64,000 nt of DNA from Brevibacillus brevis. GTDB lineage: Bacteria > Bacillota > Bacilli > Brevibacillales > Brevibacillaceae. Below are positions 2,945 through 6,240 of this stretch, piece by piece; position 1 is the stretch's first letter, and each line of letters starts with the position of its first letter. The translations under genes and the position numbers were made by a program. Below the pieces are notes generated by a model. That model did no database searches. It was not told the DNA's origin and worked only from the letters and a program-made list of their open reading frames with translations. The stretch is from NCBI RefSeq assembly GCF_022026395.1, contig NZ_CP041767.1, positions 4,124,501 to 4,188,500 of the forward strand, given 5' to 3'.

Positions 2945-5317
2945 ATGATGAACTACGCTTTACTAGACAACAAACCCATCCTGTTGCTACCTGAGAACTA
3001 CAACCGCATACCGTTTTGGCGCATGGCTGCCCGGCAGGACAAGGTACGCTGTCCAGCCTGTGCATCAGCGCTTCGCCTTCATGCTGGCATCAGCTTTGAG
3101 CCGCATTTCTTCCATCCTGAGGGAGCAGAGTGCCCGCTTCTGACGGAAAATGGTCCTGCTCCTCTCGATTCGCTGCAAGCGATTAATGAGACGGCTGCCA
3201 CTGCCTTTCAGGCTGTCTTGACTGCTACGGCCGAAAAAGATCACAGCGAGGCATCCATAGACGAAGACGAAGCAAATACAACGACCATCGGTTCCTTCCG
3301 CCTTCCGAAAAAGAGAACGATTGGCTCGAGCACGACGCCTCCCCCGCCAGCTCCGAAGCCACCGGTTTTCCGCAAACGCTTGATGCCGAAGAAGACCATC
3401 TCTCACATGGCTGAGCAAATGCGTGATCAATCGCTGCACCCGGGACAACAGCAAGCGGTGCACGCTACCGAGGGGCCTTTTCTCATCCTCGCTGGAGCAG
3501 GAAGTGGCAAGACGCGCGTCATGACTGCACGAACGACTCACTTGATCTCAGAGTTGGGCGTAAAGCCGAATCAAATCATGGTTGTGACCTTTACAACCAA
3601 AGCCGCCGATGAAATCCGTCAGCGCATTGCCCGGCAGCTACCCGCTGGACAAGCACGTGAGCTGATTGCTGGTACGTTCCACAGCATCTTTTACCGAATG
3701 CTCTTGCATCACCAGCCAGAACGCTGGGATCAGCAGCGCCTCTTGAAAAAGGATTGGCAAAAATGGCGGTTGATGCGCGAGACAGGCGCACTGCTCGGTC
3801 ATGACGAGCTTGCTACGTTAAAAGAAACAGAGATTACCGAAGCACTCGGCATTATCAGCCGTTGGAAAAACGAATACATCCTCCCCCAGGAGGTCGCGTA
3901 CCGGGAAACAACGAGCGATGCAGAAAAACGGGCGATCCAGCTATATCCTCTATATGAGGCCACAAAGAAAAAACATCAATGGTTTGACTTTGACGACATG
4001 CTCATTGGCTGCTATGAAATGCTGCGCGATGATTCAAGTCTCTTGCGCCGTTATCAGGAACGCATTACCTACGTGATGGTCGATGAGTTTCAGGATATCA
4101 ATCGCATCCAGTATGAGACGGTAAAGCTATTAGCTGCTCCACAAAACAATTTGTGCGTCATCGGGGATGACGACCAGTCCATTTACGGGTTTCGCGGCAG
4201 TGATCCGCAGTACATCTTGGGCTTCACCAAAGACTTTCCGCAGGCATCGACATTTACGCTCGAGGTCAACTACCGTTCCCATTCCTCGATCGTCAGTCTT
4301 GGCTACTCGCTGATCGGTCACAATCGGGAGCGTTGGGCAAAGGAATGCCAGTCCTTTCATCGCGAGGAAGGCGACACGTATTTATTCGAGCCAGAGGACG
4401 AAGAAGAACAAGCTTCCCGGATCGTCGATGAAATTATCCATCGTCGCGAGCAGGGTGCCATTTTGGGTGAATGCGCCATCTTATACCGTACCAATGAATC
4501 TGCACGCCCCATTTTGGAGCGCCTGAGCGAAGCAGGGATTCCGTTTCATTACACACAAGAGGAAGATTCTTTTTACCAACGCCAGACGGTTCGCTGGTCG
4601 CTGAATTATTTGCGGCTCGCGTTAAACCCGGATGACACCGATGCGCTAAAAGAAATATTGTCGACCCTCTACATCTCAGCCGAAATGTGGAATGCCTTGC
4701 GCAGCCAAGCGATCATCGAGGACAAGCCGATTTTGCACGTTCTTCCGCATTTGGCACAGCTCAAACCGTATCAGCGCAAGCATATGCAGCAAATCAACGA
4801 GATTCTCACCGCGTGCAAAGATGTTCCACCCGCTCAAGCGCTTGAGCTCATCTATGAGGATGGCAAACTGCGCGACTATCTAAAAAAACGAGCGAAAGAC
4901 CGGGAAGATGGCCGGGAACGTTGGAACGACGAGCTGCAGCAAATACTGGCAGCTTCCAAGCGCCATGCGACGATCAGCGATTTTTTGGCTTATATTGATC
5001 AAATGGCGCGACAAGAAAAAGAGTGGCGCACGATGCGGCCACTCCCGGACGAAGCTGTTCATGTTTTAAGCATCCATCGGGCAAAAGGTCTTGAATACGA
5101 CCACGTTTTCTTGCCCGATCTGGTAGAAGGTGCCCTTCCTCATGAGTACACATTGGACGAGCTGCGTAAAGGCAGCTCGGGTGCGCTCGAAGAAGAACGC
5201 CGTCTCCTATACGTCGCGATTACCCGGGCCCGTCACAGCTTGTGTATCGGTATCCCCCGGGAGCGATTCGGACGAAAGACCCGTACCTCCCGCTTCATCG
5301 CCGAGATGGGCAGGTAA
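2945..5317 (+). CDS. UvrD/PcrA-type ATP-dependent DNA helicase with N-terminal CoiA-like zinc domain
   Basis: Superfamily 1A 3'-5' DNA helicase. Visible motifs: Walker A AGAGSGKT (about 183-190), motif II VDEFQD (about 380), motif III GDDDQSIYGFRGS (about 405) and motif VI LLYVAITRAR (about 757). Residues 1-65 are not part of PcrA: they carry CPAC at 36-39 and HFFHPEGAEC at 54-62, spaced like the N-terminal zinc-binding region of competence protein CoiA. Residues 70-165 are a low-complexity proline-rich linker before the helicase core. Total 790 residues versus about 740 for PcrA. Two adjacent ATGs (2945, 2948); GAGG spacing slightly favours the second. Probably monocistronic and accessory to, not a replacement for, PcrA. 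Confidence 0.9.
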   Translation: MMNYALLDNKPILLLPENYNRIPFWRMAARQDKVRCPACASALRLHAGISFEPHFFHPEGAECPLLTENGPAPLDSLQAINETAATAFQAVLTATAEKDHSEASIDEDEANTTTIGSFRLPKKRTIGSSTTPPPPAPKPPVFRKRLMPKKTISHMAEQMRDQSLHPGQQQAVHATEGPFLILAGAGSGKTRVMTARTTHLISELGVKPNQIMVVTFTTKAADEIRQRIARQLPAGQARELIAGTFHSIFYRMLLHHQPERWDQQRLLKKDWQKWRLMRETGALLGHDELATLKETEITEALGIISRWKNEYILPQEVAYRETTSDAEKRAIQLYPLYEATKKKHQWFDFDDMLIGCYEMLRDDSSLLRRYQERITYVMVDEFQDINRIQYETVKLLAAPQNNLCVIGDDDQSIYGFRGSDPQYILGFTKDFPQASTFTLEVNYRSHSSIVSLGYSLIGHNRERWAKECQSFHREEGDTYLFEPEDEEEQASRIVDEIIHRREQGAILGECAILYRTNESARPILERLSEAGIPFHYTQEEDSFYQRQTVRWSLNYLRLALNPDDTDALKEILSTLYISAEMWNALRSQAIIEDKPILHVLPHLAQLKPYQRKHMQQINEILTACKDVPPAQALELIYEDGKLRDYLKKRAKDREDGRERWNDELQQILAASKRHATISDFLAYIDQMARQEKEWRTMRPLPDEAVHVLSIHRAKGLEYDHVFLPDLVEGALPHEYTLDELRKGSSGALEEERRLLYVAITRARHSLCIGIPRERFGRKTRTSRFIAEMGR

Positions 5318-5466: not shown

Positions 5467-6240
5467 TTAGCCGCCCATAATGCTGTAGCCAGCATCGACG
5501 TGCAGAATTTCACCCGTGATTCCCCGGGAGAGATTGCTGAACAAGAAGAGAGCGGTGTCGCCTACTTCCGATTGGTCAATCGTGCGGCGCAATGGCGCTT
5601 TTTCCTCAATTTCTTTCAGTACGGAGTTGAAATTGCGGATTCCTTTTGCAGCAAGCGTACGGATAGGACCAGCGGAGATCGCATTGATACGAATGTTCTC
5701 TTTGCCCAGGTCGTTTGCCAAGTAACGAACAGATGCATCAAGCGCAGCTTTGGCTACACCCATTACGTTGTAGTTTTGAATCACGCGCTCACCGCCAAGG
5801 TAAGTCAAAGTCACGATGCTTCCGCCCTCTGTCATCAACGGACGAGCAGCACGAGCAACTGCTACCAGAGAGAATGCGCTAATGTCTTGTGCCAATGCGT
5901 ATCCTTCGCGGGAGGTGTTAACATACTCGCCTTCGAGCTCTTCCGTTTTCGCAAACGCGATGCAATGCGCCAGGCCATGAATTACGCCCACTTTTTCTTT
6001 GATCACAGCAAATGCCGCTTCGACATCCTCATCCTTCGTGACATCGCAGTTTACCAACAACGACTCTACTCCCAATTTTTCCGTAAGTGCCGCCACGTTT
6101 TCACGCAGACGCTCCCCTTGGTACGTAAAAATCAGATTTGCTCCAGCGTTATGTAAGGATTGCGCAATTCCCCAGGCAATGCTGCGGTGGTTTGCTACGC
6201 CCATGATGACGATGTTCTTTCCTTGCAACAATGTATTCAT
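5467..6240 (-). CDS. fabI: Enoyl-[acyl-carrier-protein] reductase (NADH), FabI
   Basis: Catalyses the last reduction of each fatty-acid elongation cycle (trans-2-enoyl-ACP to acyl-ACP with NADH), in the cytoplasm. It is an atypical short-chain dehydrogenase with nucleotide-binding GVANHRSIAWGIA at 14-26, catalytic Tyr147 and Tyr157 and Lys164 in YNVMGVAK, and GPIRTLAAKGI near 190; 257 residues, the normal length. ATG start with AAAGGGG upstream and a likely -10 TATAAT at 6276-6281 on the minus strand. It is transcribed alone and ends at its own terminator. I looked for a FapR operator and saw none convincing. Confidence 0.97.
   Translation of the reverse strand: MNTLLQGKNIVIMGVANHRSIAWGIAQSLHNAGANLIFTYQGERLRENVAALTEKLGVESLLVNCDVTKDEDVEAAFAVIKEKVGVIHGLAHCIAFAKTEELEGEYVNTSREGYALAQDISAFSLVAVARAARPLMTEGGSIVTLTYLGGERVIQNYNVMGVAKAALDASVRYLANDLGKENIRINAISAGPIRTLAAKGIRNFNSVLKEIEEKAPLRRTIDQSEVGDTALFLFSNLSRGITGEILHVDAGYSIMGG

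Follow-up and report, generated by a model that had tools for sequence, protein, structure and literature searches.

What does a chromosomal helicase of the UvrD/PcrA type do with a zinc domain like that of the competence protein CoiA? The question was raised by a gene of Brevibacillus brevis in the window, which is the whole 64,000-nucleotide stretch of DNA analysed here and comes from a complete, single-contig chromosome of 6.16 Mb. The initial annotation of this DNA had described a zinc N-terminus of the CoiA type, joined by a Pro-rich linker to a complete SF1A helicase, and had suggested a tool for processing transformed or broken DNA.

The gene and its neighbours

The listed open reading frame (2945–5317, + strand) had 790 aa when counted from an in-frame ATG at 2945. 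The second ATG, at 2948, was the more likely start of the gene, because relatives aligned from that Met and the sequence GAGGTG lay 5 nt ahead of it. Residues are numbered here with the Met at 2948 as residue 1. The gene and the DNA around it comprised:

2948–5317, + strand: whole gene, a YjcD-family helicase with an N-terminal CoiA_N zinc domain, 789 aa (ORF, alignments, tree and synteny)
2937–2942, + strand: GAGGTG, ribosome-binding-like, 5 nt before ATG 2948 (read from the sequence)
2900–2927, + strand: terminator-like hairpin separating the helicase gene from its upstream neighbour (by pattern match only)
1449–2876, + strand: upstream neighbour, context outside the gene, adjoining the helicase gene at 31 of the 34 loci L001–L034, the window's own included
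5467–6240, − strand: downstream convergent neighbour, context outside the gene, present at 28 of these 34 loci

We take the upstream neighbour to encode a CNNM/CBS-type membrane protein and the downstream one (fabI) a FabI-type enoyl reductase. The 34 loci, all from the order, reach only a short distance to each side, and the neighbour counts apply within that distance. Neobacillus cucumis (L087) and Alkalihalobacillus deserti (L112) likewise had fabI downstream and on the other strand; of the Bacillaceae loci compared, only these two showed it, most of the 4-kb flanks being without it. The hairpin, detected as a pattern, had a stem of 12 pairs and a short T-containing tail; its read-through translation (KCPLP, then GGTS) was seen 5′ of many relatives too. 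A sigma-70 promoter scan gave four matches where 3.5 were expected from shuffled sequences, i.e. no excess, and a tRNA search of the window found none.

The N-terminal zinc domain is related to that of CoiA

The following features were assigned to the N-terminus:

2948–3145, + strand: CoiA_N-like zinc domain, residues 1–66 (Pfam, hhalign with controls, AlphaFold2 model)
3050–3052, + strand: putative zinc ligand C35
3059–3061, + strand: putative zinc ligand C38
3113–3115, + strand: putative zinc ligand H56
3131–3133, + strand: putative zinc ligand C62

Residues 1–66 made up a small domain of strands and one helix with a CCHC site. In the AlphaFold2 model the pLDDT was 86–96 per ten-residue block over residues 1–60, and averaged 85.5 over residues 1–73 with the disordered final stretch counted in. 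Two alignments were used for structure prediction, the window protein with 46 and with 44 sequences from the best 80 of 566 loci; L103 stood in the first of them without its start. The ligand pattern of the window protein, for which zinc binding is predicted, read C-x2-C-x17-H-x5-C. C35, C38, P52, F54 and H56 were invariant in 46/46 aligned family members and C62 was kept in at least 90% of the 46. The spacing C-x2-C-x17-H-x4-8-C was found in 45 of them, the exception (L083) being without the last Cys. The site had originally been given as residues 36–62; counted from 2945, it spans residues 36–63.

Pfam CoiA_N (PF25164) was the top model among 24736 for the isolated N-terminus (first 70 residues, E 8.2e-6), and 25/25 aligned members matched it within an E-value limit of 1, the lowest value being 3.2e-8. 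A 46-row profile of the domain was aligned by hhalign with 17 CoiA N-termini (17 of 19 loci, the fragments L067 and L069 being left out), giving a probability of 98.4% and a score of 71.6. Of 60 controls in which the CoiA columns were permuted while the three invariant zinc columns stayed in place, the best scored 20.0; of 60 in which all columns were shuffled, the best scored 15.8. The x17 spacing occurred in 14/17 CoiA proteins, and the two domains shared 60 alignable columns. By these sequence comparisons, the zinc domain is a homologue of the CoiA N-terminus, as had been proposed.

The alternative that it is a chance or generic zinc ribbon, with no kinship to CoiA, could draw on the score of the window protein alone (25.7 bits, just under the curated CoiA_N cut-off of 26.3) and on weaker matches to other ribbons, e.g. 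Zn_ribbon_4 in 15/25 members (best E 1.8e-4). With CoiA_N matched by 25/25 members, an hhalign score far above all 120 controls and a spacing common to most CoiA proteins, this explanation is barely credible. A plain ribbon without CoiA affinity, named in the initial annotation as the outcome that would speak against it, was refuted by the Pfam and hhalign profile tests.

In the reverse search, the domain profile derived from the helicases also recovered CoiA proteins; with an E-value limit of 0.01, it had matches in 90 of the 200 genomes searched from the class. Its top tier held 23 matches of at least 72 bits, and the next score was 39.6 bits. Top-tier matches lay in open frames of 766–911 residues, except for a broken copy of 144 residues in genome G011. 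Nine loci were scanned with Pfam, L051 and the eight that scored highest in the lower tier. CoiA_N was found in 9/9, with CoiA_nuc as partner in five and DUF3895 in three, the remaining one being a short fragment.

Beyond the zinc domain the proteins differed. A passage of PMC1189080 describes the N-terminal part of CoiA as leading into a PD-(D/E)XK-type nuclease; in the window protein it is followed by a helicase. CoiA_nuc (PF06054) gave no match there in a search at E up to 10, in which HMMER filters drop most matches above about 0.1, and CoiA_C (PF25166) gave none in the Pfam search. L174, L176 and L177 had a third architecture, CoiA_N followed by DUF3895, in 432–444 aa. Like the window protein, they carried CoiA_N and had no CoiA nuclease match; unlike it, they ended in DUF3895 and had no helicase.

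A sequence search of the PDB found no solved structure spanning the zinc domain; its low E-values came from zinc-finger or Cys motifs that overlapped the domain only over a short length. A fold search found no solved relative. Nucleic-acid binding by the domain is therefore a guess.

The helicase core and the linker

The remainder of the protein was divided as follows:

3146–3433, + strand: low-complexity Pro-rich linker (AlphaFold2 model; lengths in relatives)
3290–3322, + strand: conserved linker motif GSFRLPKKRTI, residues 115–125 (family consensus G-F-R-x-P-K-x-R-x-I)
3434–5314, + strand: SF1A helicase core, residues 163–789 (Pfam, NCBIfam, PDB sequence and Foldseek matches; compared with PcrA of the same genome)
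3494–3514, + strand: Walker A GAGSGKT, residues 183–189, invariant in 47/47
4082–4096, + strand: Walker B/motif II DEFQD, residues 379–383 (alignment of 47)

The SF1A core was complete, as first described (Pfam UvrD-helicase, E 3.8e-76; UvrD_C, E 4.1e-46). In DEFQD, D379, E380, Q382 and D383 were invariant in 47/47 and F381 was present in at least 90%. UvrD gave the best PDB match both by sequence (2is1, 4.3e-82) and by Foldseek (4c2t, 4.0e-45). Over 627 columns the core was 98% identical to that of B. porteri (L070). Helicases of SF1A move with 3′–5′ polarity.

The window protein shared the entire SF1A core and its motifs with PcrA, UvrD and Rep; it differed from all three in its added N-terminal zinc domain and linker. 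It reached 405 bits against the NCBIfam PcrA model (cut-off 911), the match stopping at profile position 631 of 725, and was well below the Rep and UvrD cut-offs (Rep model, 391 bits). The host genome had a separate PcrA-like ORF with a longer C-terminal tail. The window protein ended in SRFIAEMGR, and the PcrA of the same genome extended well beyond PSRFLQEI. In a passage of PMC5397179 the Tudor domain of PcrA is described as binding RNA polymerase; on comparison of the two C-termini, the tail that carries this domain in PcrA is absent from the window protein.

The Pro-rich linker between zinc domain and helicase was borne out by both sequence and model. It had about 95 residues, mostly with pLDDT <50: a low-confidence helix at 73–98 was followed by values <50 across most of 93–159. 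In 81 relatives the distance from the zinc His to a point 20 residues before Walker A varied from 49 to 191 residues. Outside the motif, the linker is variable, as these lengths show, and according to the model probably disordered. Because of the low confidence of the linker, the model cannot tell where the zinc head sits relative to the motor.

The linker motif G-F-R-x-P-K-x-R-x-I is a new observation of this analysis. Of 47 rows, 43 carried F at its column, 46 P, 36 R and 42 I. A relaxed pattern was found in 72 of 78 distinct linkers (absent from five and altered in one further), against a mean of 0.2 and a maximum of 2 for shuffled linkers; since the pattern was written after the motif had been noticed, and since the 78 include many close relatives, this comparison somewhat favours the motif. 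Its distance from the end of the stretch (20 residues before Walker A) was 34–48 residues, against 23–143 residues from the zinc domain, a difference that links it to the motor side.

The zinc domain might be a protein–protein module that makes no contact with DNA, e.g. a head that docks RecA, SSB or some other repair protein. Its recurrence with three partners (nuclease, helicase and DUF3895) would suit such a module, as would the conserved linker motif, which suggests protein contacts. The tests made here do not separate DNA binding from protein binding, and we regard a purely protein-binding domain as unlikely.

A probable Brevibacillus counterpart of yjcD

At a full-length match of E 1e-110, 37 of the 39 genomes from the order had the helicase; G034 and G035 were the two without a match at this threshold. 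The zinc motif was read directly in 34 of the 37 (loci L001–L034), the domain was found by its profile in G139 and G170, and in G223 the full-length match began at residue 8. In G011 a frame-broken second copy of the 5′ part of the gene (L036, G011:C1:3930384-3931207) lay near the very end of the single-contig genome and the intact copy near the contig start; the second copy is perhaps an assembly overlap.

A wider survey of relatives, as the initial annotation had proposed, used a full-length profile scan from which the best 80 of 566 confirmed stretches were kept, so that it samples the spread of the fusion. By a scripted motif pattern, 46 of these best 80 of 566 named loci carried the fusion, in Brevibacillus and many Bacillaceae genera. 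The 34 without the zinc motif were more distant helicases (at most 362 bits, against at least 449). In the tree built from helicase cores, a branch with an SH-aLRT of 99 separated 59 rows with the zinc domain, the window among them, from 36 unfused rows. The rows were 16 of the 42 loci L001–L042, 78 of the best 80 of 566 and the window; L126 and L140 were left out, the script having picked up a neighbouring reading frame.

The zinc-bearing loci included a 759-aa TTG-start ORF of B. spizizenii (L095), which by its length and neighbours we take to be yjcD; the adjoining genes are presumably spoVIF/cot-like, of spore-coat type. It resembled the window protein in architecture, CCHC zinc domain, clade, similar length and linker motif (GVFRLPKGKAI), with 38% identity, and differed in the genes of its 4-kb flanks and its TTG start. 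On the best reading, the window gene is orthologous to yjcD of Bacillus. The gene already has a name in model Bacillus. In the open literature (subscription papers lay mostly outside the search) no paper was found describing the function or domain architecture of YjcD. Judging by title, many papers with the name yjcD concern nucleobase transport or E. coli, where we take yjcD to be another gene of the same name.

Alternatively, the gene might belong to a defence system and encode a GajB-like helicase acting against phage. The PADLOC GajB model did match (E 1.4e-99), and a CoiA domain in an E. coli defence candidate is mentioned in part of PMC9519451. The GajB match was, however, restricted to the UvrD core and scored lower (332 bits) than the PcrA (405) and Rep (391) models. 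A mobile defence locus such as Gabija is also argued against by the conserved neighbours within the order, where the gene is near-universal, unlike mobile defence genes. An anti-phage role is thus very improbable, and it was set aside because the similarity is that of a generic helicase only.

The fusion and competence

The fusion might serve transformation: much as CoiA is attached to the uptake pole, the zinc domain would link the helicase to incoming DNA, where it would process recombination intermediates. In its favour are the homology to CoiA_N and a passage of PMC2727465 that locates CoiA at the uptake pole together with RecA and DprA.

Within the genus the evidence pointed the other way. 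The helicase was kept in all 26 genomes, but a CoiA nuclease gene was matched in six and missing in 20/26, and ComK was matched in 0/23 genus genomes tested, although the B. subtilis control did match. The nuclease loci were:

CoiA_nuc loci of the genus: L054, L065 and L068 (G003); L059 (G004); L060 and L066 (G019); L056 (G021); L061 (G022); L053 (G023)

These proteins occurred as one to three divergent copies per genome, patchily, as if mobile. ComEC, present in the host genome and consistent with competence, was also matched in 10/14 control genomes; some ComEC-bearing control genomes are not known for natural competence. The protein itself had no match to the CoiA nuclease domain, and the zinc domain also sits with DUF3895. 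The tie to CoiA and transformation drawn in the initial annotation thus failed in this lineage; of the two substrates it had offered, broken DNA is plausible and transformed DNA found no support here.

A CoiA-sized relative accompanied the fusion in G126, G049, G188, G100, G086, G217 and G208, 24–41 kb away on the same contig. These are all seven genomes outside the Brevibacillus family in which the domain-profile search found the fusion, and one of the relatives (L051) was confirmed as CoiA by Pfam. With both genes there and L051 a CoiA, a transformation role may apply outside the family. Overall, we consider a competence tool quite unlikely. Such genes should not be named 'competence' genes, since the head persists without the CoiA nuclease and ComK.

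A proposed role in repair

We favour, at slightly better than even confidence, a core chromosomal helicase of general DNA repair or recombination with a tethered zinc recognition head. This reading is preferred because competence fails in the lineage, yjcD is listed with repair genes and the PcrA tail is absent. The listing of B. subtilis yjcD with DNA-repair genes transcribed in vegetative cells stands in a section of PMC1976550 that cites a UV-C study, and YjcD appears in a table of repair-related genes in PMC11164402. Both listings may rest on annotation; the literature searched yielded no experiment on YjcD.

In the mechanism that we propose, the zinc module would act as a tethered head recognising a substrate or partner. 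By gripping DNA, either single-stranded or branched, or else a recombination protein, it would bring the motor to that site, replacing the Tudor-mediated recruitment of PcrA; we infer that the head binds either DNA or a repair protein. The linker motif, whose spacing from the helicase hardly varies, would dock either on the motor or on a partner. With the same module, CoiA would offer DNA to its nuclease.

Control by the SOS response was considered and dropped. For each of 46 genes, the 300 bp upstream contained no LexA/DinR-like box with two or fewer mismatches to the consensus (shuffled sequences gave 0.85), so there is no indication of such control.

Recognition of the CoiA-type head offers a handle on two questions, the role of the N-terminal domain of CoiA and the site of action of YjcD. 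A broader reading, which we hold as tentative and rather doubtful, makes CoiA_N a portable module that recognises DNA or the RecA machinery and has been joined to at least three effectors in Bacilli (nuclease, helicase and DUF3895 protein), with the zinc head and linker motif doing the recruiting. YjcD would then be an uncharacterised recombination helicase sent to the intermediates on which CoiA acts. The head may have been copied from a neighbouring coiA, as a CoiA-sized relative lies at 24–41 kb from the fusion in 7/7 genomes of the kind described above.
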